From Streptomyces sp. KMM 9044 (GTDB taxonomy: Bacteria > Actinomycetota > Actinomycetes > Streptomycetales > Streptomycetaceae): a stretch of DNA of 64,000 bases. Numbering within the stretch: position 1 is the first letter of the stretch; every line of letters begins with the position of its first letter. Shown in pieces: positions 15,342 to 48,286 of the stretch. The notes below the pieces were generated by a model, which saw only the letters and a list, made by a program, of their open reading frames with translations, did no database searches and was not told where the DNA came from. Location of the stretch: the NCBI RefSeq assembly GCF_024701375.2, contig NZ_CP113910.1:6882001-6946000 (forward strand), given 5' to 3'. The translations under genes and the position numbers were made by a program.

Positions 15342-16408
15342 ACCCACCCCGGACCGACGCGCGCCGCCATCACGACCCGGACGTCCGCGGTTTCGCCAGC
15401 GACAACTACGCCGGGGTCCACCCGGAAGTGCTCGCCGCCCTGGCCCTGGCCAACGGCGGGCACCAGGTCGCGTACGGCGAGGACGCGTACACGGAGAACC
15501 TCCAGCAGGTGGTCCGCAGCCATTTCGGCCCCACCGCCGAGGCCTTCCCGGTCTTCAACGGCACCGGTGCCAACGTCGTCGCGCTCCAGGCGGTCACCGA
15601 CCGCTGGGGCGCCGTGATCTGTGCCGAGAGTGCGCACATCAACGTCGACGAGGGAGGGGCGCCGGAGCGTGTCGGCGGGATCAAGCTGCTCACCGTGCCC
15701 ACCCCCGACGGCAAGCTCACCCCCGAGCTGATCGACCGGCAGGCGTACGGCTGGGAGGACGAGCACCGTGCGATGCCGCAGGTGGTGTCCATCGCCCAGG
15801 CCACCGAGCTGGGCACGGTGTACACGCCGGACGAGATGCGTGCCCTCTGCGAGCACGCGCACGCCCTCGGCATGAAGGTACACGTCGACGGCTCCCGGCT
15901 GGCCAACGCCGCCGCCACCCTGGACGTGCCGATGCGCACCTTCACCAACGCGGCCGGCGTCGACCTCCTCTCCCTGGGCGGCACCAAGAACGGCGCCCTG
16001 TCCGGCGAGGCGGTCGTGGTGCTCAACCAGGACGCCGTCAGCCACATGAGGCATCTGCGCAAGCTGTCCATGCAGCTCGCGTCCAAGATGCGCTTCGTCT
16101 CGGTGCAACTGGAAGCCCTGCTCGCGCGGGATCTGTGGCTGCGCAACGCCCGGCACGCCAACGAGATGGCCCAGCGCCTCGCCGAGGGCGTGCGCGCCGT
16201 GCACGGCGTGGAGATCCTCCACCCGGTCCAGGCCAACGCGGTCTTCGCCCGTCTGCCGCACGCCGTGACCGAGCGCCTGCAGAAGCGCTTCCGCTTCTAT
16301 TTCTGGGACGAGACCGCGGGCGATGTCCGCTGGATGTGCGCCTTCGACACGACCGAGGACGACGTGGACACGTTCGTGGCGGCCCTCAAGGAGGAGATGG
16401 CCGGCTAG
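15338..16408 (+). CDS. Low-specificity L-threonine aldolase-type PLP enzyme
   Basis: A 356-residue beta-eliminating lyase/threonine aldolase family enzyme from GTG 15338, overlapping the SDR stop. Fold-type I PLP features: FNGTGANVVAL (cofactor phosphate loop), KVHVDGSRLANA (Asp184, Arg187) and LSLGGTKNGALSG with the Schiff-base Lys217. Known members cleave beta-hydroxy-alpha-amino acids to glycine and an aldehyde. With the SDR next door, aldehyde or beta-hydroxy-amino-acid metabolism is a reasonable inference. The TAG stop is part of the CTAG at the edge of the MITE-like element, so insertion left the protein intact. Confidence 0.9.
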   Translation: MNPPRTDARRHHDPDVRGFASDNYAGVHPEVLAALALANGGHQVAYGEDAYTENLQQVVRSHFGPTAEAFPVFNGTGANVVALQAVTDRWGAVICAESAHINVDEGGAPERVGGIKLLTVPTPDGKLTPELIDRQAYGWEDEHRAMPQVVSIAQATELGTVYTPDEMRALCEHAHALGMKVHVDGSRLANAAATLDVPMRTFTNAAGVDLLSLGGTKNGALSGEAVVVLNQDAVSHMRHLRKLSMQLASKMRFVSVQLEALLARDLWLRNARHANEMAQRLAEGVRAVHGVEILHPVQANAVFARLPHAVTERLQKRFRFYFWDETAGDVRWMCAFDTTEDDVDTFVAALKEEMAG

Positions 16409-16577
16409 CTCCGTCCTCCGCGGGTCACTCTTTTGCACAGCCTCCGGGCTGGATCACGGTCCTGGAGCGATCGTGCTTCGGCGGGTTCTGCACCGCGGAC
16501 CGCTGCGCTGATCGGTGGCTGACCAGCTGTGATCAGTTGATCTTCCCGAATGGGTGACCTGCGGAGGACGGGGCTAG
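16405..16577 (+). mobile_element. MITE-like element, copy A (173 bp)
   Basis: Begins and ends with CTAG. Inside these are imperfect terminal inverted repeats: CTCCGTCCTCCGCGGGTCAC at the left and, read inward from the right, CCCCGTCCTCCGCAGGTCAC (2 mismatches in 20). The same 173 bp recurs inverted at 48114-48286 with only three differences. CTAG at both ends fits a 4-bp target duplication of the type left by IS701-family elements, and an IS701 copy with CTAG duplication is in this window, though its termini differ. No transposase fits within 173 bp. The element follows the threonine aldolase directly and its paired ends may act as its terminator. Confidence 0.8.
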
Positions 16578-16606
16578 CCGCCCTCATCTGTTCGTACAAG
16601 TATGCG

Positions 16607-16638
16607 CTCGATCGAAAGTGCAGTGACTCTCGATCGAG
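16607..16638. promoter_or_regulatory. Inverted repeat, operator-like
   Basis: Perfect 9-bp arms CTCGATCGA and TCGATCGAG separated by 14 bases, 30 bp right of MITE copy A. The spacing would suit a dimeric regulator, but there is no clear gene start next to it. Confidence 0.35.
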
Positions 16639-16687
16639 GGCATCCCGGCCGCGCTGTGCCACCAGAACCTCGGAGGGCTGAACGGGC

Positions 16688-16942
16688 CTGGTCGCCGTAC
16701 GGTTCCACGGTGTCTGGCACCGGCAGGACCCACGGGGCGGCGAACCGGGAGCCGGCGTCCGGTTCTCCCTGGCCGGCGAGCGGCTCGCCCTCACGCCCGA
16801 TCCTGTGGCCGGTGAGACGGACCCCCCGCTCCTGTATGCCGTACCGCGTCCCGTCGTACTGAAGGCGCTCCAGGCCGCCGTGGGCCGCCCACACCTGTGG
16901 CGGGCGCTCCCCACCGCACTGCCGGACCACGCCGGATCATGA
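16688..16942 (+). pseudogene. Possible 84-codon coding remnant lacking a normal start
   Basis: The frame from 16688 shows strong third-position GC bias and a plausible protein (GVRFSLAGERLALTPDPVAG, PPLLYAVPRPVVLKALQAAV, GRPHLWRALPTALP), ending in TGA at 16940-16942. An in-frame stop lies just upstream, and the only candidate start after the GGAGGG at 16672-16677 is CTG 16688. It may be the 3' part of a truncated gene. I do not recognise the family. Confidence 0.35.
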
Positions 16943-16962
16943 CGCCCCCGCGACGACCGGGC

Positions 16963-17691
16963 TCAGCGCGCCTCGGCCGCGCGGACCTGCTCCGGGGTCG
17001 GTGCCGTGCCGCCGAGGTGGGCCGGCATCCACCAGGTGTCGTCCGGACCCTTGGGCCGCACCGGGTAGGCGCGCTGCGCGGCCTCCAGCAGTTCCTGGAC
17101 CCGCTCCCGCAACTGCCGGGTGATCGCGCCCGCGTACTTCTCCTTGGACGCCTCGACCGCCTCGCCGACGCGCATGGTGACCGGGGTGTGACTGCGCCTG
17201 AAGTTGCGGGGGTGCCCCTTGGTCCACAGTCGCTGAGTGCCCCACACCGCCATCGGGATCAGGGGCACGCCCGCCTCCTGTGCCATGCGCGCGGCACCCG
17301 ACTTGAAGCTCTTCAGCGTGAAGGACTGGGAGATCGTCGCCTCCGGGAAGACGCCCACGATCTCGCCGGAGCGCAGCGAGTCGAGCGCGTGCGCGTATGC
17401 CGCGTCCCCCTGCTTGCGGTCCACGGGGATGTGCTTCATCCCGCGCATCAGCGGACCCGAGACCTTGTGCCGGAAGACGGCGTCCTTCGCCATGAAGCGC
17501 ACGAGCCGCTTCTGCGGCAGTGCCGCGAGGCCGTTGAAGACGAAGTCCAGGTAGCTGATGTGGTTGCTCACCAGCACGGCGCCGCCCGTACACGGGATGT
17601 TCTCCGAACCCCGGCAGTCGATCTTGAGGTCCCACGCCTTGAACAGAGTCTGGGCGAAACCGATCACGGGACGGTAGACGAGCTCTGCCAT
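16963..17691 (-). CDS. Lysophospholipid acyltransferase family protein (PlsC-type)
   Basis: A 242-residue PlsC-like 1-acylglycerol-3-phosphate acyltransferase. The family's catalytic motif appears as NHISYLD (His-X4-Asp) and the substrate motif as FPEATIS. It would transfer a fatty acyl chain to lysophosphatidate in phospholipid synthesis, at the inner face of the membrane; the N-terminus has a short amphipathic stretch rather than a clear transmembrane helix. A perfect palindrome 62 bp upstream may be its operator. Monocistronic. Confidence 0.9.
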   Translation of the reverse strand: MAELVYRPVIGFAQTLFKAWDLKIDCRGSENIPCTGGAVLVSNHISYLDFVFNGLAALPQKRLVRFMAKDAVFRHKVSGPLMRGMKHIPVDRKQGDAAYAHALDSLRSGEIVGVFPEATISQSFTLKSFKSGAARMAQEAGVPLIPMAVWGTQRLWTKGHPRNFRRSHTPVTMRVGEAVEASKEKYAGAITRQLRERVQELLEAAQRAYPVRPKGPDDTWWMPAHLGGTAPTPEQVRAAEAR

Positions 17692-17752
17692 GGGTGCGGT
17701 GGAACCCTTTCTGCTCTGCCTGGGAAGGAGGATTCCCAGCCGAAGTTACGCA

Positions 17753-17768
17753 GCCGTAGGTTTACGGC
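17753..17768. promoter_or_regulatory. Operator-like palindrome upstream of the acyltransferase
   Basis: Perfect inverted repeat GCCGTA-GGTT-TACGGC, 62-77 bp upstream of the minus-strand acyltransferase. Its size resembles TetR-type operators of lipid genes (inference). A weaker repeat, CTGGGAA-N6-TTCCCAG, lies at 17720-17739. Confidence 0.45.
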
Positions 17769-18106
17769 TTGTCGCTGATGGTGCCCCAAGAACGACCGGT
17801 GAACCAGCCCTGGCGCCTGCCTGTGGCGAGATTCTTGTCACGTCCACCCCTATGATCCACCTCGGGCTTTTGCGTCGCCGTTACCCCGCGTACCGTCGTC
17901 TGCCGCAGGAGCAGGGGGCATCTGGTGTTCCGGGCGGTAAGCCGGACACGGCGTCGGGGAGGGCCGCCGCGAAGCGGGGTCCTCTCGTGCCGATGGCCAT
18001 GGATCAGGCACTCGCACGGGAAATCCGCATGGGGAACCCGCGCGGAAGCGGGAATCTTCGCGGTCCCGTGCATGCTTGCGACGGAGGATGACCGGACCGA
18101 TGCTGC
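17769..18106. other. Intergenic region with no gene recognised
   Basis: No frame shows conserved protein or consistent codon bias. It separates the divergent acyltransferase and thioredoxin-like genes and presumably carries the promoter of the latter; GGAGG at 18083-18087 is a candidate ribosome-binding site. Confidence 0.4.
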
Positions 18107-18499
18107 GTGCCGGCGCTCGCGGCGGCGAGTGTCCTCGGAGTGCTGCTGCGGCGGCGGAGCGGGAGAGTGCGGGTGCGCGGGCGGGGCGACGGCAAGCGGC
18201 TGCGGGCGGCGGAAATCGGCGCGGACCTCGGTGAACGCGCCACCCTCGTCCAGTTCTCCAGCGCGTTCTGCGCACCCTGCCGGGCGACCCGCAGGGTGCT
18301 CGGTGAGGTGGCCGGACTGGTTCCCGGCGTGACCCATGTGGAGATCGACGCCGAGGCGCACCTGGACCTCGTGCGCCGGCTGGAGATCCTCAAGACCCCC
18401 ACCGTGCTCGTCCTCGACGCCGACGGCACCGTCGTCCGGCGTGCCACCGGCCAGCCGCGCAAGGCCGATGTGATCGCCGCGCTCGGCGAGGCCGTGTGA
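18107..18499 (+). CDS. Thioredoxin-fold protein with an N-terminal membrane anchor
   Basis: About 130 residues. A short hydrophobic N-terminus (LAAASVLGVLL) is followed by basic residues and a thioredoxin domain with the redox motif CAPC in VQFSSAFCAPCRATRRVL, the cis-Pro loop ILKTPTVLVLDADG and a C-terminal helix. It probably works in thiol-disulfide exchange at the membrane. The start is unsure: GGAGG at 18083-18087 is 19 bases from GTG 18107, whereas ATGs at 18088 and 18100 are in another frame, so a small indel near the 5' end is possible. Confidence 0.82.
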   Translation: MPALAAASVLGVLLRRRSGRVRVRGRGDGKRLRAAEIGADLGERATLVQFSSAFCAPCRATRRVLGEVAGLVPGVTHVEIDAEAHLDLVRRLEILKTPTVLVLDADGTVVRRATGQPRKADVIAALGEAV

Positions 18500-18648
18500 C
18501 GGCCGGCGAGCTTCGCCACCAGGGATGTTCCGGTGCTCTTCGGTGCCGATTCCGGGACGCAGCCTGCTGCGGGCAGGTCGAGTTCCGGTTACGCTGCGTT
18601 GCGAAGGTCACAGTTCAAAGCGCTTGCTCAGCGGGAATGGACCGGATG

Positions 18649-18660
18649 TACTGGCGAGTA
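18649..18660. promoter_or_regulatory. Operator-like repeat upstream of etfB
   Basis: TACTGGCGAGTA, a near-palindrome 110 bp before etfB, resembles TetR-family sites of fatty-acid oxidation genes in actinobacteria (from memory). Since ETF takes electrons from acyl-CoA dehydrogenases such control would make sense, but it is inference. Confidence 0.35.
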
Positions 18661-18769
18661 ATATTTCGCTCGGAAACGTGGATCGCCCCGATCGGGAACG
18701 GCCGTTTGAGGCGCCTATGCTGCCTGAAGGCAGGCAGCCAGAAATGACGATTGCAGTAGGAGAGCCGGC

Positions 18770-19558
18770 GTGAGCTTGAGGATCGTTGTCACAGTGAAGT
18801 ACGTGCCCGACGCCACTGGCGACCGGCACTTCGCCGATGACCTGACCGTCGACCGCGACGATGTGGACGGTCTGCTCTCCGAGCTGGACGAGTACGCGGT
18901 CGAGCAGGCGCTGCAGATCTCGGAGAACTCCGACGACGACGTGGAGATCACCATCCTGACGGTGGGCCCGGAGGACGCCAAGGACGCGCTGCGCAAGGCG
19001 CTGTCCATGGGCGCGGACAAGGCGATCCACGTCGAGGACGACGCTCTGCACGGCACCGACGCCATCGGCACCTCCCTGGTCCTGGCCAAGGCAATCGAGA
19101 AGGCCGGCTACGACCTGGTGATCTCCGGCATGGCCTCCACCGACGGCGTCATGGGTGTCGTGCCGGCGCTGCTCGCGGAGCGCCTGGACGTACCGCAGGT
19201 GACGCTGCTGTCGGAGGTGTCGGTCGAGGACGGCAAGGTGTCGGGCCGCCGTGACGGCGACGCCGCGTCCGAGCAGCTCGAGGCGTCGCTGCCGGCGGTC
19301 GTGTCGGTCACCGACCAGTCGGGCGAGGCGCGTTACCCGTCCTTCAAGGGCATCATGGCGGCGAAGAAGAAGCCGGTTCAGTCCTGGGACCTGTCCGACC
19401 TCGACCTCGACGAGGACGAGGTGGGCCTGGAGAACGCCTACACCGTGGTCGACTCCGCGACCGAGCGTCCGGCCCGCACCGCGGGCACGATCGTCAAGGA
19501 CGAGGGCGAGGGCGGCAAGCAGCTCGCCGAGTTCCTCGCGAGCCAGAAGTTCATCTGA
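18770..19558 (+). CDS. etfB: Electron transfer flavoprotein, beta subunit
   Basis: A 262-residue ETF beta (FixA) subunit, the usual length, from GTG 18770 with GGAG upstream. Family hallmarks: LRIVVTVKYVPDATGD at the start, NPYD-like LDEYAVEQALQI, the AMP-binding region (ISGMASTDGVMGVVPALLAE) and the SFKGIMAAKKKPV stretch. With EtfA it forms the FAD/AMP-containing heterodimer passing electrons from acyl-CoA and related dehydrogenases to the respiratory chain. etfA follows after 62 bp, clearly the same operon. Confidence 0.97.
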   Translation: MSLRIVVTVKYVPDATGDRHFADDLTVDRDDVDGLLSELDEYAVEQALQISENSDDDVEITILTVGPEDAKDALRKALSMGADKAIHVEDDALHGTDAIGTSLVLAKAIEKAGYDLVISGMASTDGVMGVVPALLAERLDVPQVTLLSEVSVEDGKVSGRRDGDAASEQLEASLPAVVSVTDQSGEARYPSFKGIMAAKKKPVQSWDLSDLDLDEDEVGLENAYTVVDSATERPARTAGTIVKDEGEGGKQLAEFLASQKFI

Positions 19559-19620
19559 GTCAAGAGGCTCGACTCGCTTTCCGCCCCTCACACTTCGCAA
19601 GCAGGAGAGAAGAAGTCCCA

Positions 19621-20580
19621 TGGCTGAAGTTCTCGTCTACGTCGACCACGTGGACGGCGCCGTCCGCAAGCCGACCCTGGAGCTGCTGACGCTGGCACGC
19701 CGCATCGGCGAGCCGGTCGCCGTCGCGCTGGGCAACGGCGCCGCCGACACCGCCGCCACGCTGGCCGAGCACGGCGCGGTGAAGGTCCTCACGCACGAGG
19801 CCGCCGAGTACGCCGACTACCTCGTCGTGCCGAAGGTGGACGCCCTCCGGGCCGCCCACGAGGCCGTCTCCCCGGCGGCCGTCCTGGTCCCCTCCTCCGC
19901 CGAGGGCAAGGAGATCGCCGCCCGCCTGGCGCTGCGTCTGGGCTCCGGCATCATCACCGACGCCGTCGACCTGGAGGCCGGCGACGAGGGCCCGGTGGCC
20001 ACGCAGTCGGTGTTCGCCGCCGCCTACACCACCAAGTCCCGTGTCTCCAAGGGCACTCCGGTCATCACGGTCAAGCCGAACTCGGCTGCCGTGGAGGCCG
20101 CTCCGGCCGCAGGCGGCGTCGAGACGCTGTCCGTGTCGTTCTCCGAGCAGGCAACCGGCACCAAGGTCACCGGCCGCACCCCGCGCAAGTCGACCGGCCG
20201 CCCCGAGCTGACCGAGGCCGCGATCGTGGTCTCCGGTGGCCGCGGTGTCAACGGCGCGGAGAACTTCGCGGTCATCGAGGCGCTCGCCGACTCCCTCGGC
20301 GCGGCCGTCGGCGCCTCGCGTGCCGCGGTCGACGCCGGGTGGTACCCGCACACCAACCAGGTGGGCCAGACCGGCAAGAGCGTCTCGCCGCAGCTGTACG
20401 TCGCCTCCGGCATCTCCGGCGCGATCCAGCACCGTGCGGGCATGCAGACCTCGAAGACGATCGTGGCGGTCAACAAGGACGCCGAGGCCCCGATCTTCGA
20501 CCTCGTCGACTACGGCGTCGTCGGCGACCTCTTCGACGTCGTCCCGCAGCTCACCGAGGAGATCAAGACCCGCAAGGGCT
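19621..20580 (+). CDS. etfA: Electron transfer flavoprotein, alpha subunit
   Basis: A 320-residue ETF alpha (FixB) subunit beginning [20 protein letters not shown]. The C-terminal FAD domain is complete: [40 protein letters not shown] and [20 protein letters not shown], ending with the conserved [16 protein letters not shown]. It binds the redox-active FAD. The gene follows etfB with a GGAGAGAAG site and is closed by a strong hairpin 20 bases after the stop. Confidence 0.97.
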
Positions 20581-20599
20581 GAGCCCCTCCGGGCCGTAC

Positions 20600-20640
20600 G
20601 AGGCCCCCGCGACCGCCTCCGGCGCGGTCGTGGGGGCCTC
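20600..20640 (+). terminator. Terminator of the etfBA operon
   Basis: 17-bp stem GAGGCCCCCGCGACCGC paired with its complement (one G-T-type mismatch) around a 7-base loop; it also separates the convergent endonuclease gene. Confidence 0.75.
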
Positions 20641-20662
20641 GCCCCGTTCCCGGCACCCCGGC

Positions 20663-21590
20663 TCAGTCCGTCCGTCCCGGGGTGAGCGACGCCTGTACCG
20701 GCAGATGGTCGCTCGGGAACCGCCCGGCCGGCGCGAAGGTGTTGACCGACGCCCGGTGCACCGTGGCGCCGGGCGTGGTCAGGATCCAGTCGATACGGGC
20801 ACCGCCCGGCACCAGCGGCCTGTACCCGTGGAACGTCCCGTACGCCTCGCCCCGCTCGGCCGCCGTGTCCCAGGTGTCGACGAGACCGGCGCCCAGCATC
20901 GTGTCGTACACCGGGTTCCCGTGGGCGGCGACGTTGAAGTCCCCCGTCACGATCACGGGCAGGGAGCGGGCCGGCCCGGCGACGCGCTCGGCGAGCAATG
21001 CGGCGGCCCGCTCGCGTGCGTACTGGCTCGCGTTGTCCAGGTGGGTGTTGAACACGTAGAACTCCCGGTCGCCGGCGCGCAGGTCGAGGAAGCGGACCCA
21101 GGTGACCATGCGGACATGGGCGTTGCCCCAGGTGTTCGAGGCGATCAGATACGGCGTGTCGGAAAGCCAGAAGTGGTCGTACTCCAGGGGGGCGAGCCGG
21201 CGGGTGTCGTAGAGGATCCCCATGAACTCGTCGCGGCTGCCGCCCGCCCGCCCGGCCGGTGCCGATCCAGTCGTAGGACGGGCCCAGGTCGGCCTCGATG
21301 TCGCGCAGCTGCTGGTGGAGGCCCTCCTGGGTACCGATGACGTGCGGCTGTTCGCGGCGCAGCAGTTGGCGTGTCACGGGTCTCCGGGCGGTCCAGCTGT
21401 GGGGCTCCGCCGTACTGGCGAAGCGCAGGTTGAACGACATGACGTCCAGCGGCCCGCCCCGGCGTTCCTGACGTTCCCGGGCCGAGGCGGGCTCGGCGGG
21501 CAGTGCTGTACGGGAGAGCGGAAGGGCGACGGAGGCGGCGAGCGCGGTCTTCATTCCCAGGCGGCGCGTGACTCGGCTGTGGTTCGGCAC
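20663..21590 (-). pseudogene. Secreted endonuclease/exonuclease/phosphatase-family protein with a frameshift
   Basis: From GTG 21590 (AAGGAG 8 bases upstream) the first part has a signal peptide with RRLGMKTALAASVALPL and the EEP start LDVMSFNLRFAS; it continues to WIGTGRAGG. The rest is in another frame from SRDEFMGILYDTRRLAPLEY through NTHLDNAS, VTGDFNVAAHGNP and SDHLPVQASL, the metal and catalytic motifs of the family. The shift is at 21241-21254 in three tandem copies of a 4-base GGGC unit; two copies would restore a full-length protein of about 308 residues. Mutation, slippage switching or sequence error are all possible. Confidence 0.8.
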
Positions 21591-21871
21591 AGGAACTCCT
21601 TCGCTGGTGCTGCGCGGTGGTGTCCGGGTGAGTCGGGCGTGCGTCGGTGCGCGGGGCGGTGCCGGGCGGTGCGTGATTCCGTGTCAGACGGTGCCAGATA
21701 GGCGTGAACATGCCGAGATGGCGGAGTGGATCGGGGCGCAAGAGGGAGGCAAGACGGTGTTGACCTGCGCGAAGGCCGCCCGATAACTTCATTCAACGGA
21801 TTGATGATTTCGCATTGCGGAAAGGGCGGGACGGGTGTGCCACGAGGCACCAAGGATCTGGAGGGCACGGA

Positions 21872-23176
21872 ATGAGCCAGGGCCGGCAGGAGCGGGTGGC
21901 GACGAGTATCGCGGGCACCGTCGGCGCGGAGATCAGCACCTCCCTGGCGCCGGTCGACGCCGAGCTGGAGCGCCGCTACCCCGGAGACCCCGGCACCCGC
22001 CAGCCCGTCCACACCGTCTACGTTCCCGGTGACGCCTTCACCGCCGGCACTCTCCGCTCCTGGGGCGACCAGGCCCTGGCCGCCCTGGACGAACACGCTC
22101 CGGACGCCGTCTCGTTCGCCGCCGCCGTCGGGATGGCCCCCGCAGTGGCCGAGGACGTGTACGGGCGCGTCCGTGCCAAGCTGGAGCGCGAACCCGTGGA
22201 GGACCTGCGCGTCGACTTCGAGGACGGTTACGGCAACCGTCCCGACGCCGAGGAGGACGAGACCGCCGCCCGCGCCGCGCGGCTGATCGCCGAGGCGTAC
22301 CGGGAGGGCACGGCGGCCCCGTACACGGGCATCCGGATGAAGTGCATGGAGGCCGCGGTGCGCGACCGGGGCATCCGCACCCTCGACATCTTCCTCACCG
22401 GCCTGGCCGAGGCCGGCCCGTTGCCCGACGGGCTGGTGCTGACGCTTCCCAAGGTCACGTACACCGAGCAGGTCACCGCCATGGTGCGGCTCCTCGACGC
22501 CTTCGAGGAGGCGCGTGGGCTGGAACCGGGCCGGATCGGCTTCGAGATCCAGATCGAGACCAGCCAGGCCGTCCTCGCCGCCGACGGCACCGCCACCGTC
22601 GCCCGGATGATCCAGGCCGCCGAGGGCCGGGCCACAGGGCTGCACTACGGCACCTTCGACTACAGCGCCTGCCTCGGGGTCTCCGCCGCCCACCAGGCCA
22701 GTGACCACCCGGCAGCCGATCACGCCAAGGCCGTCATGCAGGTCGCCGCCGCGGGCACCGGCGTACGTGTGTCGGACGGTTCCACCAACGTCCTGCCCGT
22801 CGGTCCGACCGCACAGGTCCACGCCGCATGGCGGCTGCACCACGGCCTCACCCGCCGGGCCCTGGCCCGCGCCTACTACCAGGGCTGGGACATGCATCCC
22901 GGGCATCTGCCCACGCGTTACGCGGCGGTCTTCGCCTTCTACCGCGAGAGCTTCGGCCGGGTCGCAGCCCGGCTCGCCCGGTACGCAGCCCGGACCTCGG
23001 GCGACGTCATGGACGAGCCGGCCACCGCCAAGGCGCTGGCCGGCCACCTGCTGCGCGGCTTGGACTGCGGTGCCCTGGACCACGCCGAAGTGGCACGGGC
23101 GACGGGCCTGACCCGCGCAGACCTGGAGGGCTTCGCGTCCCCGCGCCCGGGCGACCCGACGGGAGGGCCCGGATGA
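21872..23176 (+). CDS. Aldolase/citrate-lyase-like protein (DUF6986 type)
   Basis: A protein of about 434 residues from ATG 21872, with GGAGGG 7 bases upstream. Resembles the HpcH/HpaI and citrate-lyase-beta TIM barrel: RVDFEDGYGNRPDAEEDETA, PYTGIRMKCMEAAVRDRGIR, LTLPKVTYTEQVTAM, and GFEIQIETSQAVL, where Arg and Glu residues would hold a metal-bound keto acid. The C-terminal part (RRALARAYYQGWDMHPGHLP) resembles malate-synthase-like members. Probably cleaves or condenses a keto acid or acyl-CoA; exact reaction unknown. Monocistronic. Confidence 0.75.
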   Translation: MSQGRQERVATSIAGTVGAEISTSLAPVDAELERRYPGDPGTRQPVHTVYVPGDAFTAGTLRSWGDQALAALDEHAPDAVSFAAAVGMAPAVAEDVYGRVRAKLEREPVEDLRVDFEDGYGNRPDAEEDETAARAARLIAEAYREGTAAPYTGIRMKCMEAAVRDRGIRTLDIFLTGLAEAGPLPDGLVLTLPKVTYTEQVTAMVRLLDAFEEARGLEPGRIGFEIQIETSQAVLAADGTATVARMIQAAEGRATGLHYGTFDYSACLGVSAAHQASDHPAADHAKAVMQVAAAGTGVRVSDGSTNVLPVGPTAQVHAAWRLHHGLTRRALARAYYQGWDMHPGHLPTRYAAVFAFYRESFGRVAARLARYAARTSGDVMDEPATAKALAGHLLRGLDCGALDHAEVARATGLTRADLEGFASPRPGDPTGGPG

Positions 23177-23315
23177 GGGGCGTCGGCGACGCAGTGCCGG
23201 TGCCGGGATTTCCCGACCGCCCAGCCGTGTGTACCGCTCCGCAGCCGACACCCTCACCGGTGGCTCCTCCTCGAACGTCCGGCCGCCCCGCGCGGTTCCC
23301 GGCGGACGAGGGTGC

Positions 23316-24365
23316 TCAGTCTGCCGGGGGCAGCTCGCCCGAGCCGCGCGTGATCAGCTTGGTCGGCAGCTCGATCCGCTCGGGGGAGAGCAGGGTGCCG
23401 TCCAGCTGACGGAAGAGGCGCTCGGCCGCGGTCCGGCCGAGGGCGGCGGAGTCCTGGGCGACGACGGTGAGCCCCGGCCGGAGCAGATCGGCGAGCTCGA
23501 TGTCGTCGAAGCCGACGAGCGCGACCGGGCGGGACTGCTCGCTCAGGACCCGGATCACGGTGACCGTCACCCGGTTGTTGCCCGTGAAGACCGCCGTGAC
23601 CGGCTCCGGGCGGGACAGCATCTCCTCGGTGGCCCGGCGCACCCGCCCGGGGGCGGTGACCCCCAGGGATATCCAGGCGTCCGCCACCGGTATGCCCGCG
23701 TCCTCCATGGCTGCGCGGTAGCCGCGCAGCCGCTCGGACGCGGTGTGGATGCCGGGCATGTCACCGATGAAACCGATCCTGCGGTGCCCGTGGGCGATCA
23801 GGTGGGCCACGCCGTCCCGGGCGCCGCCGTAGTTGTCCGACACGACGACGTCGGCGTCTATCCGGCCGGCCGGCCGGTCCACGAAGACCGTGGCGACGCC
23901 CGCCTTGAGCTCCGGCTCGAGATACCGGTGGTCGTCACCGGCCGGGATCACCACCAGTCCGTCCACCCGGCGGGCGCACAGCGCCAGCACCAGCTCCTGC
24001 TCGCGGTCGGCGTCCTCCGCGCTGGAACCGTTGATCAGCAGTGCGCCGTGCGCGCGGGCGACCTCCTCGACCGCCCTGCTCAGCGGACCGTAGAACGGGT
24101 CCGCGAGATCTTCCAGGACCAGACCCACACTGGCGGTACGGCCCTTGCGCAGCACCCGCGCGCTGTCGTTCCGGCGGAAACCGAGTGCCGCGATGGACTC
24201 CTGCACCCGGCGCTCCGTCTCCGGCGTGACCCCGGGTTCGCCGTTGACCACCCGTGAGACGGTCTTCAGGCCGACGCCGGCCCGGGCCGCCACGTCCTTC
24301 ATGGTCGGGCGGCTGCCGTAACGGGACCCTGGGAGGCGGTGGGTGCGGCGGGGCGTCTCCGGCAC
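23316..24365 (-). CDS. LacI-family transcriptional regulator
   Basis: About 349 residues from GTG 24365; the longer open frame to 24545 is not conserved. The helix-turn-helix reads MKDVAARAGVGLKTVSRVVN, with hinge FRRNDSARVLRKGRTASVGL. The periplasmic-binding-protein core (DPFYGPLSRAVEEVARAHG, RVDGLVVIPAG, GHRRIGFIGDMPG, VALVGFDDIELADLLRPGLT) is complete and should bind a sugar. It is divergent from the ROK kinase gene, with a LacI-type operator between them, so it probably represses the kinase and itself. Confidence 0.92.
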   Translation of the reverse strand: MPETPRRTHRLPGSRYGSRPTMKDVAARAGVGLKTVSRVVNGEPGVTPETERRVQESIAALGFRRNDSARVLRKGRTASVGLVLEDLADPFYGPLSRAVEEVARAHGALLINGSSAEDADREQELVLALCARRVDGLVVIPAGDDHRYLEPELKAGVATVFVDRPAGRIDADVVVSDNYGGARDGVAHLIAHGHRRIGFIGDMPGIHTASERLRGYRAAMEDAGIPVADAWISLGVTAPGRVRRATEEMLSRPEPVTAVFTGNNRVTVTVIRVLSEQSRPVALVGFDDIELADLLRPGLTVVAQDSAALGRTAAERLFRQLDGTLLSPERIELPTKLITRGSGELPPAD

Positions 24366-24447
24366 GGTACGGTGTCCTGTCCTATAGACCACGCGCTGCG
24401 TGGAGCCACGGGGGTGTATGAGGATGTGGCGTCGAGCATAGAGCCTG

Positions 24448-24459
24448 GACAACGTTGTC
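24448..24459. promoter_or_regulatory. LacI-family operator between the regulator and ROK kinase genes
   Basis: Perfect 12-bp palindrome GACAACGTTGTC with the central CG step typical of LacI/GalR operators, 83 bp upstream of the LacI start and 145 bp upstream of the kinase. Confidence 0.7.
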
Positions 24460-24603
24460 AGGCTCAGGGACACTGTCCACCGCACGCCCCGGCCCGCGAG
24501 TGGTCGCGACATCGGGGTGCGGCTCGCCCCCGTGTCTCGGTTCATGGCCGCGCATGGGCTGCTTCAGCGCCTTTCTCATGGTTGACGGGGAGAACCGACA
24601 CTG

Positions 24604-25554
24604 ATGTACACCGACCTCGTGGCAGCGCTCGACATCGGCGGTACCAAAATCGCCGGCGCGCTGGTGGACGGACAGGGCCGGATACTGGTCCGCGCCCAGC
24701 GGCCGACGCCCGCCAAGGAGGACGGCGACACCGTGATGCGAGCGGTCGAAGTGGTGCTGGGCGAGCTCACCGCGTCCCCGCTGTGGGGGCACACGAGCGC
24801 CGTCGGCATCGGCAGCGCGGGCCCGGTGGACGCCTCCACCGGCACGGTGAGCCCGGTGAACGTGCCCGGCTGGCGTGACTACCCGCTGGTCGCCGGAGTC
24901 CGGGCCGCCACCGGTGGCCTGCCCGTGGAACTGATCGGCGACGGCGTGGCGATCACGGCCGCCGAACACTGGCAGGGCGCCGCCCGCGGTCACGACAACG
25001 CGCTGTGTATGGTCGTCTCGACCGGGGTCGGCGGCGGACTCGTGCTGGGCGGCAGGCTGCACCCCGGGCCGACCGGCAACGCGGGGCACATCGGCCACAT
25101 CAGCGTGGATCTCGACGGCGATCCGTGCCCGTGCGGCTCGCGCGGCTGCGTGGAGCGCATCGCGAGCGGGCCCAACATCGCCCGCCGGGCCCTGGCGGAC
25201 GGCTGGCTCCCCGGACCGGAGGGCGACACCTCCGCCGCCGCGGTGGCCGCCGCGGCCCGTGCCGGGGACCCGGTGGCCGTGGCGTCGTTCGCGCGGGCCG
25301 CGCGGGCGCTGGCCGCCGGAATCGCGGCCACCGCGACGCTGGCCGAGATCGACATCGCCGTGGTCGGCGGGGGAGTGGGCAAGGCGGGAGAGGTCCTCTT
25401 CACCCCCCTGCGCCAGGCCCTGACCGAGTACGCGACGCTGTCGTTCGTCCAGCGTCTCGTGGTGGCGCCGGCGCGGATGGGCACCGACGCCGGGCTGGTG
25501 GGCGCCGCGGCGGCGGCCCTGACCCGGCGGACGGCCCCGGCGGCAGGCGTCTGA
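24604..25554 (+). CDS. ROK-family sugar kinase (glucokinase-like)
   Basis: A 316-residue kinase without an N-terminal DNA-binding domain. It has the phosphate motif DIGGTK (10-15), the catalytic-Asp region (IGDGVAITAAEHWQG), VSTGVGGGLVLGG, and the ROK zinc signature GHISVDLDGDPCPCGSRGCVE. It phosphorylates glucose or an amino sugar with ATP; sequence alone does not separate these. The divergent LacI gene and the operator between them suggest sugar-inducible expression. No transporter gene adjoins. Confidence 0.9.
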   Translation: MYTDLVAALDIGGTKIAGALVDGQGRILVRAQRPTPAKEDGDTVMRAVEVVLGELTASPLWGHTSAVGIGSAGPVDASTGTVSPVNVPGWRDYPLVAGVRAATGGLPVELIGDGVAITAAEHWQGAARGHDNALCMVVSTGVGGGLVLGGRLHPGPTGNAGHIGHISVDLDGDPCPCGSRGCVERIASGPNIARRALADGWLPGPEGDTSAAAVAAAARAGDPVAVASFARAARALAAGIAATATLAEIDIAVVGGGVGKAGEVLFTPLRQALTEYATLSFVQRLVVAPARMGTDAGLVGAAAAALTRRTAPAAGV

Positions 25555-25683
25555 TCCGGGCCGGGACACGGATGCCCGCAGGAACGTTCACGCTGTGCCG
25601 TACGAGTTCGTACCGCCGTGGGCGTCCGTACGTTCCTGTGCGTCCGTGCGTGACCCCGGGCGGCTTCTGCCGTTGAACCCGAC

Positions 25684-25893
25684 ATGAAGAAGCGCAGCAT
25701 GCTCGCCATCGCCTCCCTCGCCACCGGATTCGTCGTCGCGGCGGTCACCCCGTCGCACGCGCTCGGTGAGGGCCTCGACAGCCTCCCCGCCGGTGACGCA
25801 CTCAGCACCCTCGACCACGCCGTCACCGACGACGCCGTCACCGACGACGCCCTCGCCGCCATGGCCGACGGCGACCGGGAGACCAAGGCCTGA
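25684..25893 (+). CDS. Small secreted protein of unknown function
   Basis: A 69-residue protein with a clear signal peptide (MKKRSMLAIASLATGFVVAA, cleavage near SHA-LG), leaving an acidic mature peptide of about 43 residues with a short internal repeat (AVTDDAVTDDALA). No Cys and no known domain. No strong ribosome-binding site is seen before ATG 25684. A hairpin follows 24 bases after the stop, supporting a real transcription unit. Confidence 0.65.
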   Translation: MKKRSMLAIASLATGFVVAAVTPSHALGEGLDSLPAGDALSTLDHAVTDDAVTDDALAAMADGDRETKA

Positions 25894-25916
25894 CGGACCA
25901 CATCGCGAAACCGCCC

Positions 25917-25952
25917 ACGGCGCCGGTCCCCCCCAAGGGGCACCGGCGCCGT
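25917..25952 (+). terminator. Terminator of the small secreted protein gene
   Basis: Perfect 11-bp stem ACGGCGCCGGT/ACCGGCGCCGT; the 14-base loop itself contains C and G runs that can extend the pairing. Confidence 0.6.
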
Positions 25953-26110
25953 CGGTGTGCGTACTCAACTGGGGCTGGTTTCCGTGGCAGGGTGGAACGG
26001 GCAAGCCGCAGGGGACCAACAGAAGAAGGGGAACCGTGATCGTCCGGATCAACGGTCGCGTCGACATAAGGCCAGGTCGGCGTCCTACCTGCTTCTATTC
26101 GCTCCGAAAC

Positions 26111-27557
26111 CTAGTAGGGCTTTGTCAGGTCCTTTGGTGGGGTTCGGGTGTGGGGGCGGGTTGGCCGCATATCGAGCAGGCGCCGGTCCAGGTGGCCAGG
26201 ATCTTCTGTAACTTGCGGAGGACCGTGTAGAGGGTCAGGCCGGCGCAAGGACTTTCGGGTCGAGCCTGAGCATGGTGCAGAAAGCCTGAGCGAGGGTGGC
26301 CAGGGTCATGTGCCGGTGCCAGCCGAGGTAGCTGCGGCCTTCGGAGTGGTCCAGCCCAAGGCCGTCCTTGAGCTCACGGTAGTCGTGCTCGAGGCGCCAG
26401 CGGATCTTGGCGATGCGGACCAGTTCACGCAGCGGGGTGTCGGCGGGCAGGGTGGACAGCCAGTAGTCGGTGGGCTCGGCGGCGCCGGGCCATTCGGCCG
26501 GCAGCCGGCACTCGGGCAGTGAGCCGTCGGCGGCGCGGGGGATGTCGCGGTTGGCCGGGCGTACGCGCAGGGCCACGAAGCGCGAGCGCATGCCGGCTCG
26601 CGGGTTGCGCGGGCCGGTCCTGGTGTCCTGTCGCCAGGTGACGGTGCGGGCGGCGCTCCGCCCGGCGGCCGGGACGGGGGCGCGCAGGGTGCTGTGCGGT
26701 ATCGGGTATGCGGGCCGGGGCGGACGGCCCCGGCCGCTGCGGGGCGGTCGCTCGGGCCGCGCGTCGCCCGGGTGGGCGGTCGTGGTGCCCTTGACGGCGA
26801 CCGCGTAGACCAGATCGCGCTCGGTCGGGCCCAGACGGAAACCGGTGGCGTCGCCGTATCCGGCATCAGCGACCACCGGGAGGTCGGGCAGTTCCCACTG
26901 GTCGCGGACTTCGTCGAGCATCTCAAGCGCCTGGCGCCACTTCTGCCTGTGGCGGACCTGGCCGGGGATGCCTGCGCGTCGGCGGCGTCGGCGGATCGCC
27001 TCGGCCAGGAGCCTGTCGTCCGCTGTGGCGGCATCGTCCCAGCTGTCCGGGATGAACAGCCGCCAGTTGACGGCGGTCGAGGCGTGGTCGCTGACCAGGC
27101 TGACACTCACGCCCGTCTGGCAGTTGCCGCGTTTGCCCAAGGCACCGCAATACATCCGGGCCACCCCGGGAGAGTCGTAGCCGTCCTTGGGGAAGCCGGT
27201 GTCGTCGATCGCATACGCCTCCGGGGCGATATGCGCCGCCGCCCACCGGGCCACCCGCCGCCGCACCTCGACGTAGTCCCAGGTGGAGGAGGATATGAAC
27301 TGCTGCAGCTGCTGGTGGTCCACGCCCAGGCGCTCGGCCGTCGGCTGCATCGGCTTGCGTTTGCCGTCCAGCATCAGCCCGCGCATACAACTCGCCCTTG
27401 GCCCGCTGATCCCGCCGCGCGAGCGAGCCGAGCATCTCGGCCGCGAACGCCTCCAGGCACGGACGGACCTCGTCTATCTCCTCAGGTGTCACACCTGGCA
27501 CAAGATCACAGGCTACACACAGAACGGCAGTTGGGGTACCTAACAAAGCCCTACTAG
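26111..27557 (-). mobile_element. IS701-family insertion sequence with CTAG target duplication
   Basis: Ends are CTAG (26111-26114 and 27554-27557) followed inward by TAGGGCTTTGTCAGGT on the left and TAGGGCTTTGTTAGGT on the right (one mismatch in 16). The 1439-bp interior holds one IS701-type transposase gene on the minus strand. A 4-bp CTAG duplication is characteristic of this family. Because the transposase is frameshifted, this copy is probably inactive unless supplied in trans. It marks the start of a stretch of degraded mobile DNA up to 28603. Confidence 0.88.
26235..27492 (-). pseudogene. IS701-family transposase, frameshifted near its N-terminus
   Basis: From about GTG 27492 the protein begins TPEEIDEVRPCLEAFAAEML and RDQRAKGELY; the continuation, MRGLMLDGKRKPMQPTAERL, is in another frame from about 27386. 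Two bases appear missing at the RGLM junction. The rest is complete: YAIDDTGFPKDGYDSPGVAR (first catalytic Asp), VVADAGYGDATGFR (second Asp) and IKIRWRLEHDYRELKDGLGL (catalytic Glu). Total length would be about 418 residues, near the family norm. Confidence 0.85.
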
Positions 27558-44525: not shown

Positions 44526-45497
44526 ATGCAGACCGGACTGAAGACCACCGCATTCGCCGCAGCCCTGGCCGCGACCTTCGGCGCGGCGTACGGCGTCGGC
44601 CAGGGGCTTGAGCCGGTCGTCGAGGACGGAGGACCCGTCTCCGCGCACGACGAGCGGCACGCCCCCACCTCGCCCGCACCGCACGAGGGTGACGGTCGTG
44701 ACGGGCACGAGACCGCCCCCGCGGGAGGCCTGCAGGTCTCCGAGAACGGCTACACCCTCGACCTGAGGACCCCGACGGTCGAGGCCGGTCGACGCGCGGA
44801 CCTGCGGTTCGCCGTCCGGGACGACAGCGGGCGGGCGGTCACCGACTACCAACGCGAGCACGACAAGGAACTGCACCTCATCGTGGCCTCGCGCGACCTG
44901 CTCACCTACCGTCACCTGCACCCCACGCGCGCCGCCGACGGCACCTGGAGCACCCCGGTCGACCTGCCGAGGGCCGGCGGTTACCGGGTCTTCGCCGACT
45001 TCACCCCGGGGAGAAAGGATGCCGAGAACCTCACCCTCGGCGCGGACCTCGCCGCTTCTGGCCCCTACCGGCCGCAGCGCCTGCCCGAACCTCGTGACAC
45101 GGCCCGGGCCGGCGGCTACGAGGTCCGCCTGGAGGGGGCGCTGCGGCCGGGCCGGGGGAGCGGGCTTGACCTGACCGTCTCCCGTGACGGCAAACCGGTC
45201 ACCGACCTCCAGCCCTACCTCGGTGCCTACGGCCACTTGGCCGCCCTGCGCTCCGGAGACCTCGCCTACCTGCACGTCCACCCGAACGGCGAACCCGGCG
45301 ACGGCAGCACCGAGCCCGGTCCGGCGATCTCGTTCACGGCCACGGCGCCCAGCGCGGGCAGCTACCGGATGTTCCTGGACTTCAAACACGACGGAGTCGT
45401 CCGTACCGCGGCGTTCACGGTCGAGGCGGGCACTCCCGCACCGGACTCCGGTACCGGCGACCACGGAGGCCGGGGCGGGGACGGTCACGGTCACTGA
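44526..45497 (+). CDS. Secreted copper-locus protein, probable metal binder
   Basis: A 323-residue protein from ATG 44526 (AAGGAG 8 bases upstream). A signal peptide or single anchor ([20 protein letters not shown]) precedes a His/Asp-rich linker, two beta-sandwich-like units with [20 protein letters not shown] and [20 protein letters not shown], and a His-rich tail ([12 protein letters not shown]). The two HLHP/HVHP motifs in equivalent positions suggest a duplicated domain with metal-binding His. I know this type from copA neighbourhoods in actinobacteria but no activity is established. The copper-type promoter upstream and divergent copA support a role in extracytoplasmic copper handling. 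Confidence 0.75.
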
Positions 45498-45505
45498 GCC
45501 GCACA

Positions 45506-45549
45506 CGCCGCCGGCCGGACAGCGCCACCGCGCGGCCCGGCCGGCGGCG
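45506..45549. terminator. Terminator after the secreted copper protein gene
   Basis: Perfect 13-bp stem CGCCGCCGGCCGG/CCGGCCGGCGGCG with an 18-base loop. Confidence 0.7.
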
Positions 45550-45555
45550 CACGGC

Positions 45556-46083
45556 TCACGCCACGACGACGCGCAGTCCCGCCTCCTCGAACCGGTGCAC
45601 CGCCTCCGGAGCCACCGCCGAGTCCGTCACCAGGGTGTCCACCGACTCGGCCGGGCAGATCCGGGCGAACGCACGTCGGCCCAGCTTGCTGGAGTCGGCG
45701 GCCACGACCACCCGCTCGGCCCGCTCGCACAGCAGCCGGTTGATCGCCGCCTCCGCCTCGTCGTGTGCCGCCGCCCCCGTGCGCGACGTCGAAGGCGACG
45801 ACACCCAGCACCGCCACGTCGAGCGTGATCTGTCCCAGCACGCCGTCCGCGAGCGGCCCTACCAGCTCGTACGACTGGGCCCGTGCGGCACCGCCCGTCA
45901 CCACGATCTTGAACTGCGGTCGCACGGCGAGTTCGCACGCGATGTTGAGCGCGTTCGTCACCACGGTCAGCGCGGGCGATCCGGACACGAGATCGCCGCG
46001 CACCGCCAGCGCACGCGCCACCTCCGTGGTAGTCGTCCCGCCGGTCAGCCCGACCGCCTCGCCCGGCGCGAGGGGACACCCGC
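45556..46083 (-). pseudogene. C-terminal remnant of a DeoR-family regulator
   Basis: Minus strand from about 46083: GEAVGLTGGTTTTEVARALA, LTVVTNALNIACELAVRPQF and VVTGGAARAQSYELVGPLAD, the sugar-phosphate-binding domain of DeoR/GlpR/AgaR regulators. After DVAVLGVVAFDVA the sequence continues in another frame (AAAHDEAEAAINRLLCERAE, VVVAADSSKLGRRAFARICP) because of one extra G near 45785. The N-terminal helix-turn-helix is missing: the sequence joins directly to a SIS-domain gene fragment on the other strand. Not functional. Confidence 0.78.
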
Positions 46084-46290
46084 ACCACCGCGCTCACCGC
46101 CGACCCGGACACTCCCGTGACGACGGCGGCGGACGAGACCGTCGTGCTCGACCACGCGGACGAACGCTCTGTCGTGCAGACCCGGTTCGCCACCACTGCC
46201 CTCACTCTGCTCCGCGCCCACCTCCGCCTGCACGGCGACACGGTCGTCGAGGACGCGCGCACCGCCCTCGCGCAACCGCCGCCCGCCCGG
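46075..46290 (+). pseudogene. Internal/C-terminal remnant of a SIS-domain sugar isomerase gene
   Basis: The frame reads TADPDTPVTTAADETVVLDH, ADERSVVQTRFATTALTLLR, AHLRLHGDTVVEDARTALAQ. This matches the second sugar-isomerase (SIS) half of AgaS-like proteins around the SVVQTRF segment. Roughly 270 N-terminal residues are absent, replaced by the DeoR remnant, and it runs into the aldolase remnant at about 46290. Confidence 0.6.
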
Positions 46291-46293
46291 ACG

Positions 46294-46856
46294 CAGGCTT
46301 CGGCTCCGTCGTGTACGACGCGGCCCGGCTGCCGTACACCGAGAACCTCGCCGCGCCCCGGGCGGCCGTCGACTGGGCACACGCCCGGGGTCTGTGGATC
46401 GAGGCCGAACTGGGAGAGATCGGCGGCAAAGGCGGCAGGTCCCCGCTGGACGCCCACGCACCAGGCGCCCGCACCGACCCCGACCAGGCCCGCGCCTTCG
46501 TCGCCGGCTCGGGCGTGGACGCGCTCGCCGTCGCCGTCGGCACCACACACGCGATGACCACCCGCACCGCCACCCTCGACCACGCCCTCCTCGGACGCCT
46601 GTCCACCGCCCTGGACGTCCCCCTCGTCCCGCACGGCTCCTCCGGCCTCCCGGACGCCGAACCCACCGCCGCCGTCGGATCGGGCATCGCCAAGGTGAAC
46701 ATCGGCACGGCGCCGAACACCGCCATGACCGGAGCCATCCGCGGCTTCCTCGCCGCCCGCCCCGAAGCGGTCGGCTCCCGCGGCTGCCGGACCGCGGACC
46801 GTGAGGCGATGACCCGCGCGGTGGCGGCCGTCATCGGAACGCTCACCGCCCACTGA
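46294..46856 (+). pseudogene. C-terminal two thirds of a class II (GatY/KbaY-like) aldolase
   Basis: Reads AGFGSVVYDAARLPYTENLA, GLWIEAELGEIGGKGG, GVDALAVAVGTTHAMTTRTA, LVPHGSSGLPDAEPTAAVGS and GIAKVNIGTAPNTAMTGAIR to a normal stop at 46856. This is the zinc-dependent fructose/tagatose-bisphosphate aldolase family, with HGSSG and NIGT phosphate-binding motifs. About the first 90 residues are missing, including the first zinc-ligand region. Translation could start at GTG 46312 but the product would be incomplete. A strong terminator follows. Confidence 0.8.
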
Positions 46857-46860
46857 ACCG

Positions 46861-46908
46861 GCCTGAGCCCGAACCGGCCGGGAACTTCGCGGCCGGTTCG
46901 GGTCAGGC
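46861..46908 (+). terminator. Strong terminator after the aldolase remnant
   Basis: A 19-20-bp stem (GCCTGAGCCCGAACCGGCCG against its complement with a single-base bulge) around a 9-base loop. Confidence 0.78.
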
Positions 46909-46945
46909 CCGGAGGCCGGGCCGACGGCCCAGGACGGAGGGCGGC

Positions 46946-48100
46946 TTACCGCTTCACGGCCTTCAGTACGACGAACTTCCGGTCGCTCGCCACCACTTCG
47001 CTGTTCCCGAACAGCCGTCGCAGCTTCACGTGGTAACCCAGATGCCGGTTGCCGACCACCCACAGCTCACCACCCGCCCGCAGGGCGCGCCGGGCGCCGG
47101 TGAACATGCGCCAGGCGGTGGCGTCGCTTGTCGCCTGGTGGGAGTGGAACGGCGGATTGTTGAGCACCAGGTCGACACTGGAGTCCGGTACGCCCGTCAG
47201 ACCGTCGCCAACCCGGAACTCGGCATGCCCTGGTACGCCGTTGGTCCGGTAGGTCGCCTGCGCGGACGCCACCGCCTGGAACGACTCGTCCGCGAACAGC
47301 AGTTCGGCCCGCGGGTCGGACAGTGCCACCGCCGTACCGACGACGCCGTTGCCGCACCCGAGGTCCACCACCCGAAGCCCCGGCCGCTCCGGCGGCGGCT
47401 GTGGCAGATGCCGGAGGAAGAACCGGGTACCGATGTCGAGCCGGTCCGCGCAGAAGACCCCCGCGTGGCTGACGACGGCCCGGCCGGACATCGAGCCGAT
47501 ACCGTCGGGCAGCCGGTAGCGGTACGGCCAGGGACCGGCGGGACGGACCAGCGCCGGGTCCGGGGTGCAGAAGATCAGACGTGCCTTCTTCTCGGCGAGG
47601 GAGGTCCGGGTGGGGCCGATGATCCGTTCGAACAGGTTCAGCGTCGAGCTGTGGATCTCCTTCACCATGCCGGTCCCGACGACGACCGTGCCCTCGTGCA
47701 CCGCGGGCGCCAGCCGCAGCAGTTGGTCCTCCAGCAGCGCCAGGCTCTTGGGCACCCGCACCAGCAGCACGTCGATCCGGCCCGGTGGCGGGTCCTGCGT
47801 GGTGAGCAGCGGCACCGTACCGGGCCCGACCCCGGCGCGTGCCAGGTTCGCGCGGGTCGCCTCCTGCCCCAGCCAGGAGTCGGTGATCTGCGTCGGCCGG
47901 TGGGCGGCGAGCGCGGTGACGAGCGCCCCCCACCGGTCCCCGACGACCACGACCGTGCCTTCCAGCGGCACCTCCTCCCGGTCGAGATGCCCGAGCAGGT
48001 ACTCGTCGGAGGCGTCCCAGGCGCGCAGCCGGTCGCGGGGATCCTCGGGGAAGCGGGCCAGGAGCGGCGCACCCCACGCAGTCGTCATACGGTCGTTCAT
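46946..48100 (-). CDS. RlmG/RsmC-type class I methyltransferase
   Basis: A 384-residue protein with the duplicated Rossmann layout of RsmC/RlmG rRNA guanine-N2 methyltransferases. The N-terminal half lacks a SAM motif; the C-terminal half has RVVDLGCGNGVVGTAVALSD (SAM loop) and LVLNNPPFHSHQA, the NPPF catalytic motif for exocyclic amino groups. The likely substrate is a G of 16S or 23S rRNA. The start lies only 13 bp from MITE copy B, and no ribosome-binding site is visible in those 13 bases, so the element may now supply its upstream signals. Confidence 0.85.
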   Translation of the reverse strand: MNDRMTTAWGAPLLARFPEDPRDRLRAWDASDEYLLGHLDREEVPLEGTVVVVGDRWGALVTALAAHRPTQITDSWLGQEATRANLARAGVGPGTVPLLTTQDPPPGRIDVLLVRVPKSLALLEDQLLRLAPAVHEGTVVVGTGMVKEIHSSTLNLFERIIGPTRTSLAEKKARLIFCTPDPALVRPAGPWPYRYRLPDGIGSMSGRAVVSHAGVFCADRLDIGTRFFLRHLPQPPPERPGLRVVDLGCGNGVVGTAVALSDPRAELLFADESFQAVASAQATYRTNGVPGHAEFRVGDGLTGVPDSSVDLVLNNPPFHSHQATSDATAWRMFTGARRALRAGGELWVVGNRHLGYHVKLRRLFGNSEVVASDRKFVVLKAVKR

Positions 48101-48113
48101 CGTGTGGGCCAGG

Positions 48114-48286
48114 CTAGCCCCATCCTCCGCAGGTCACCCATTCGGGAAGATCAACTGATCACAGCTGGTCAGCCACCGATCAGCGCAGCGGTCCGCGGTG
48201 CAGAACCCGCCGAAGCACGATCGCTCCAGGACCGTGATCCAGCCCGGAGGCTGTGCAAAAGAGTGACCCGCGGAGGGTGGAGCTAG
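48114..48286 (-). mobile_element. MITE-like element, copy B (173 bp, inverted relative to copy A)
   Basis: Bounded by CTAG at 48114-48117 and 48283-48286. Read on the minus strand it equals copy A at all but three positions, all in the terminal repeats: two adjacent changes in one end and one in the other, which turns GGAGGACGG into GGAGGATGG. It lies between the divergent RlmG-like and AlkB genes. The pair encloses 31.5 kb in inverted orientation. Confidence 0.8.

Follow-up and report, generated by a model that had tools for sequence, protein, structure and literature searches.

A non-coding inverted-repeat element of Streptomyces sp. KMM 9044, probably moved in trans by an IS1634-family transposase

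Introduction

What are the two short inverted repeats that face each other across 31.5 kb of DNA in Streptomyces sp. KMM 9044, and which enzyme moved them? The stretch analysed, called the window below, comprises 64,000 nt (assembly GCF_024701375.2, NZ_CP113910.1:6,882,001-6,946,000, forward strand) and the repeats lie at its positions 16405-16577 (+) and 48114-48286 (-). A first-pass annotation had described them as resembling miniature inverted-repeat transposable elements (MITEs), had suggested from their CTAG ends that an IS701-type transposase mobilised them, and had noted that the DNA between them could be flipped. The results below bear out the MITE and point to a transposase of a different family, IS1634. 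In what follows C1 is contig 1 of the genome that contains the window (the own genome), L-numbers are loci and G-numbers are other Streptomyces genomes.

Results and discussion

The MITE family in the own genome

On reading, the repeats agreed at 170 of 173 positions, and both ends of each were CTAG. The three differences (positions 9, 10 and 165) all fall, as noted earlier, in imperfect terminal inverted repeats of about 24 bp, in which 22 of the first 24 positions match between the arms. When the 6-bp target duplication described below is taken into account the bodies are 163 bp long, too short for a transposase gene, and GCTAGC stands on both sides of each:

16404..16409 (+): left duplicated target GCTAGC; contains the TAG stop (16406-16408) of the upstream aldolase-like gene
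16410..16572 (+): MITE copy 1, 163-bp body, inverted ends TCCGTCCTCCGCGGGTCAC / CCCGTCCTCCGCAGGTCAC
16573..16578 (+): right duplicated target GCTAGC
48282..48287 (-): left (MITE orientation) duplicated target GCTAGC
48119..48281 (-): MITE copy 2, 163-bp body, opposite orientation
48113..48118 (-): right (MITE orientation) duplicated target GCTAGC

A DNA search of the own genome (7.43 Mb, 3 contigs), in which 40 of 46 first-look candidates were scored, gave 25 matches, all on contig 1 and all with E ≤ 6.9e-70. These occupy 23 loci, 21 of them single and two head-to-tail dimers with one common CTAG (C1:1969474-1969815 and C1:7145328-7145669). The copies occur in both orientations, two are 185 bp long, and they differ from each other by at most 10% (mean 4.5%); relative to the consensus, the bodies contain 107 substitutions in 25 × 163 bases.

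The empty counterparts of these sites were sought in G332, which among 392 Streptomyces genomes (own included) gave the best match to the DNA around copy 2 (95-96% identical) and which has no match to the MITE itself. At 11 of the 23 loci G332 could be read across the junction and all 11 were empty; the other 12 were not resolved there. Seven (L001, L002, L003, L004, L010, L012 and L014) had a single word identical to that of the own genome, in line with the single CTAG predicted for empty sites in relatives. At the other four the word differed at one or both ends: GTAG at L015, CTAG at L017 (CTGG in the own genome), CCAG with a different preceding base at L022, and CTGG at L024 (where the two ends in the own genome have CTGG and CTAG). 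The site of copy 1 is empty, its right flank agreeing for only a few bases before the genomes diverge. At one dimer site the very CTAG that holds the dimer is occupied in G332 by an IS1634 element from a different lineage.

The copy number of 25, the inverted ends, a length too small for a transposase, the target duplication, the empty sites in a relative and an autonomous element with similar ends (see below) mark the repeats as copies of a MITE, a non-autonomous element without a gene.

A 6-bp target duplication centred on CTAG

The duplication extends beyond CTAG. The base after the left CTAG was the same as the first right-flank base in 23 of 25 copies (9.9 expected; 0 of 100,000 shuffles) and, without the dimers, in 19 of 21 (7.4 expected). 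In MITE orientation, G preceded the left CTAG in 24 of 25 copies and the right CTAG in all 25. The insertion sites would thus be 6-bp NCTAGN words, almost always GCTAGN with G to the left of the element, and each insertion would duplicate these 6 bp. At native CTAG sites near the copies, G preceded CTAG on at least one strand in 7 of 15 cases, compared with G on the element's left at 22 of 23 MITE loci. The MITE therefore prefers GCTAGN, and its orientation seems to be set by the G.

The duplications contain 9 mismatches over 276 duplicated bases (23 loci). A hybrid origin of the imperfect ones, such as L017 and L024, with the donor base at one end and the target base at the other, was considered and is not needed, as 9/276 is close to the mean distance of the MITE bodies from their consensus. 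The imperfect duplication at L021 (C1:1995252-1995424) can be ascribed to an adjacent deletion: the MITE lies near a gene start, and the following ~630 bp, present in G322, are missing.

The same duplication was seen with autonomous elements. In 22 two-ended elements with IS1634-type ends, the 6-mer NCTAGN was identical on both sides in 20 and matched at 5 of 6 positions in two; the outer bases matched in 22 of 22, and only these are a free test, as the ends were found by patterns containing CTAG. Eight of the 22 came from one genome, two of those with common flanks, and one 822-bp element was included on its ends alone. Further elements were read by eye: the duplication was perfect in L271, L266 and a split plasmid copy, and matched at 5 of 6 positions, with one outer base differing, in L272.

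According to PMC2266710, IS701 duplicates exactly 4 bp of its target and IS1634 5-6 bp, and PMC8024623 describes a 6-bp repeat made by ISGka5 of the IS1634 family.

An IS1634-family partner

The own genome was scanned for the MITE end sequence (≤3 mismatches). This gave 52 sites, 48 of which were MITE ends and four the ends of IS1634-family elements: one intact element, C1:6142028-6143846, and two broken copies, L059 with a disrupted reading frame and L060 interrupted by another insertion, which we take to be IS21-like. The intact insertion sequence (IS) is 1,819 bp long with GCTAGA on both sides, and encodes a 558-aa transposase (NF033559, 254 bits, cut-off 100; DUF4277) that aligns along its length with four relatives at 60-63% identity, L181 and L270 having been left out of the comparison. 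A full-length element of the kind sought by the first-pass annotation was therefore found, with terminal repeats that are similar rather than the same: its right end reads CCCATCCTCCGCACGTCAC and that of the MITE CCCGTCCTCCGCAGGTCAC. Both IS ends carry CCCATCCT, which fits the IS1634 end pattern C-----YT, and the MITE ends, read from inside NCTAGN, fit it too except for T at position 1 of the left end. The family is characterised in PMC2266710 by lengths of 1500-2000 bp, duplications of 5-6 bp and this end pattern.

The MITE could therefore be acted on in trans by an IS1634-family DDE (Asp-Asp-Glu) transposase whose own element has nearly the same inverted ends. Direct observations are the number of copies, their ends, the duplication, the empty sites, and the ends and target in common with the IS; that the transposase of this particular IS lineage did the moving, and how cutting and joining proceeded, is inferred. 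As far as sequence comparison can tell, it is very likely that the MITE belongs to the IS1634 group and was moved in trans by an IS1634-family transposase into NCTAGN with a 6-bp duplication.

Several observations count against this assignment. Imperfect 6-mers occur at 7 of 21 single-copy loci, and CTAG is missing from the left end of broken copy L059. No similarity between MITE and IS was found by blastn beyond the ends, so the MITE is not a simple deletion derivative of the IS. The IS copies are 99.7-99.8% identical whereas the MITE copies are up to 10% apart, which suggests that the MITE spread may predate the present IS copies or stem from a lost relative. A scan with a different end pattern also showed that the own genome has, at C1:647627, a lone end from a second IS1634 lineage, so that a different helper is possible.

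Beyond the own genome, a search of the 391 other Streptomyces genomes did not recover the IS lineage that has these ends; the best other transposase there was 64% identical. A linear plasmid of Streptomyces sp. NBC_00289 does carry part of the IS (1,469 bp at 95.8% identity), in an element split by IS1182. Other IS1634-type arrangements were also seen: L260 and L117 (G325 and G357; 2.15 and 2.63 kb) each have left-type ends on both sides and are flanked by a perfect 6-bp duplication, and the 822-bp element L261 (G285), with GCTAGG on both sides of its IS1634-type ends, is perhaps another non-autonomous derivative.

Alternative explanations

The window also contains an IS701-family element, which is relevant to the choice of transposase:

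26111..27557 (-): IS701-family element, open reading frame (ORF) 26235-27386, between two CTAG words (26111 and 27554), ends unlike those of the MITE

Like the MITE copies, this element is flanked by CTAG, and it was this likeness that suggested movement by an IS701-family transposase with a 4-bp CTAG duplication. The two differ in both other respects. The base beyond CTAG is duplicated as well in 23 of 25 MITE copies, whereas IS701 duplications are exactly 4 bp (PMC2266710), and the ends of the window IS701 are unrelated. No IS701 element with MITE-type ends CCCRTCCTCCGC was found: the window IS701 has different ends, and all four non-MITE matches of the own-genome end scan lie on IS1634 elements. 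IS701 was accordingly rejected as the helper, a role we regard as very improbable for it. A repeat kept by selection as a functional RNA or operator would account for the strong fold, which the MITE shows both as DNA and as RNA; as single-stranded DNA the 173-bp repeat folds 7.4 standard deviations better than shuffles. That fold includes a 26-bp transposon end stem, no Rfam family reached the cut-off in the window, and 11 of 23 loci are empty in G332, which leaves such a function hardly credible.

Two near-identical inverted repeats might also frame an invertible 31.5-kb cassette. Window positions 10388-16409 and 16635-26114 map to a single G332 contig with order and strand preserved, as do 46286-48119 and 48328-52298 to another; both MITE junctions are thus collinear with G332, and no 31.5-kb inversion was seen. 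The 25 copies lie in both orientations, and a third, on the opposite strand at C1:6874405-6874577, just outside the window and 23.8 kb upstream of copy 1, is nearer to copy 1 than copy 2 is. The window pair is therefore neither special nor a unit. Recombination between copies could still occur, but the flip raised by the first-pass annotation found no evidence, and a cassette is most unlikely. The preferred explanation is still an IS1634-family transposase acting in trans.

The sixth target base follows the MITE sublineage

Among the 21 single-copy loci, a nearest-neighbour analysis found the first right-flank base concordant at 15.8 of 21 (6.9 by chance; 0 of 5000 shuffles) and the matching left base at 17.3 of 21 (6.7 by chance; 0 of 5000 shuffles). 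None of 15 control flanking positions, one of which (left -1) hardly varies, followed the sublineage (lowest p 0.11). The test was post hoc, the pattern having been noticed beforehand. When all 25 copies were compared by a distance-based test, p was 0.0013 for the left base and 0.068 for the first base of the right flank; leaving out the dimers changed these values to 0.0014 and 0.098. The strength of the effect therefore depends on the statistic. Copies with identical bodies in unrelated flanks share both bases in L009/L010 and L020/L022, and the left base only in L012/L017.

Since the MITE is non-coding, two explanations present themselves: bursts of transposition driven by different transposases, or a target core that the element itself carries. 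The first of these, successive bursts by transposases with different base preferences, has about an even chance of being correct. IS1634 lineages do keep to different 6-mers (two-ended copies in G212 have TCTAGC in 5 of 5 in one lineage and ACTAGA in 3 of 3, two of which share flanks, in another; those in G126 have TCTAGA in 2 of 2), and the end at C1:647627 shows a second lineage in the own genome. Against successive bursts, the one IS lineage whose ends match is found at GCTAGA and at GCTAGG (read at one end) in the own genome, and at GCTAGG on the plasmid, so that one transposase seems to tolerate different bases, and the three pairs of identical-body copies at unrelated sites share their left base.

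In the second, which we put forward only tentatively, the excised element would keep one NCTAGN and join only targets with the same word. The kept word might conceivably be a cohesive end or a circle junction, and a DDE element would then act like a site-specific recombinase with a heritable crossover core, an unexpected property for such a transposase if true. Co-inheritance of the sixth base with a non-coding MITE and the single 6-mers in G212 (5/5) and G126 (2/2) lend this some support, and on balance it is the doubtful choice. Exceptions to one word per lineage weaken it: GCTAGA stands at a single left end in G212 (L251) that resembles the second lineage, and of six left ends in G078 five have GCTAGT and one GCTAGC; the three right ends read in G078 all have T following CTAG. 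The second-lineage end at C1:647627 weakens it further.

Distribution

In 41 genomes (own included) the MITE was matched in three, two of these with short matches only. The search of the 392 genomes gave matches in 11, those in the ten others being only 31-59 bp; about two candidates were scored per genome, so weak copies may be missed. The further copies predicted from the window pair were thus found in the own genome, with no full-length match in the 391 others. G011 (L026) reads like a diverged relative with similar ends.

An exact scan of an 84,980-species collection, which may leave out the own record, found the end pattern in nine stretches from six organisms. Kitasatospora sp. GP82 has two identical 168-bp elements with ends CTAGNCCCGTCCTCCGCACGT and GCTAGT on all four sides, and Streptomyces sp. 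ISL-87 has one short element with ends CTAGNCCCGTCCTCCGCACGT and GCTAGC on both sides; the ends of these elements are as in the window MITE and their interiors are unlike it. A stretch from Actinacidiphila oryziradicis (L077) differs between its two sides, with C at one and T at the other. Carriage of the MITE by plasmids or phages was rejected, there being no match in 72,556 plasmid and 50,697 phage records; viral contigs gave no exact match to the end pattern.

A 1.7-kb block in Streptomyces sp. NRRL S-31 (L073:3646-5371) and A. oryziradicis (L078:6120-7852), 96.9% identical, ends at an IS1634-type right end and may be a passenger-carrying element.

Comparison with known systems

The partner resembles the IS1634 family (DDE transposase, formerly IS1549, split from IS4) in transposase family, length, 6-bp duplication and C-----YT ends, and differs in that CTAG is fixed in mid-target, with mostly one 6-mer per element lineage. 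IS1549 and IS1634 themselves have long, variable target duplications, reported without a mechanistic model in PMC2266710; no such repeats are seen here. The 187-nt MITE of Microcystis, ascribed to an ISL3-type transposase (PMC11448079), is likewise short and non-coding, with inverted ends and many copies, and was presumably moved in trans. The present MITE differs in its IS1634-type partner, its GCTAGN target and a sixth target base inherited with the element. A literature search that covered few subscription papers returned no title about an IS1634 partner of a MITE in Streptomyces. The case pairs a clean MITE family of Streptomyces with a matching IS1634 element and shows that CTAG ends should not simply be equated with IS701.

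CTAG, stop codons and neighbouring genes

CTAG is rare in the window (13 occurrences, 164 expected from base composition), and 6 of the 13 are MITE or IS701 ends. In the GC-rich genome as a whole it is rare too; some of it lies at TAG stop codons, and an insertion there leaves the gene whole as the duplication rebuilds the target word. Copy 1 is such a case, being inserted in the stop codon of the aldolase-like gene, at which G332 (a single GCTAGC) and G146 both have GCTAGC. A rare word that overlaps stops, together with a duplication that rebuilds it, offers a simple way to spread with little harm. By a codon-usage criterion, CTAG lies at a stop in 7 of 23 joined sites, or 8 of 23 when copy 1, whose gene was identified by Pfam, is added. 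For comparison, the window together with two stretches of G332 has 27 CTAG places, 4 of them at stops; this set includes MITE and IS701 ends, and its stop thresholds differ slightly. Enrichment of the MITE at stop codons (8/23 vs 4/27) was not accepted, the numbers being too small to claim more than that MITEs follow CTAG.

The genes next to the two copies are:

14822..16408 (+): ORF with a beta-eliminating-lyase / aldolase-like domain (residues 191-477; Pfam), ending in the TAG of the left CTAG; its true start is probably further in
46946..48100 (-): RlmG/RsmC-like methyltransferase gene, ATG 13 nt from the CTAG end of copy 2

Copy 2 therefore lies within the upstream region of the methyltransferase gene. 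At window 48101-48118 and at L004 the MITE copies end 13 and 9 nt, respectively, ahead of a start codon (or ORF start), at TAGNNT words. We take these words to resemble -10 boxes and the outward GTGACC in the end repeats, ~15 nt away, to be -35-like, which would make a candidate promoter.

Elsewhere in the window, it is the IS701 element (26111-27557) and not the MITEs that marks a break in synteny with G332: window positions 26114 and 28401 fall on different G332 contigs, each of which continues with DNA absent from the window.

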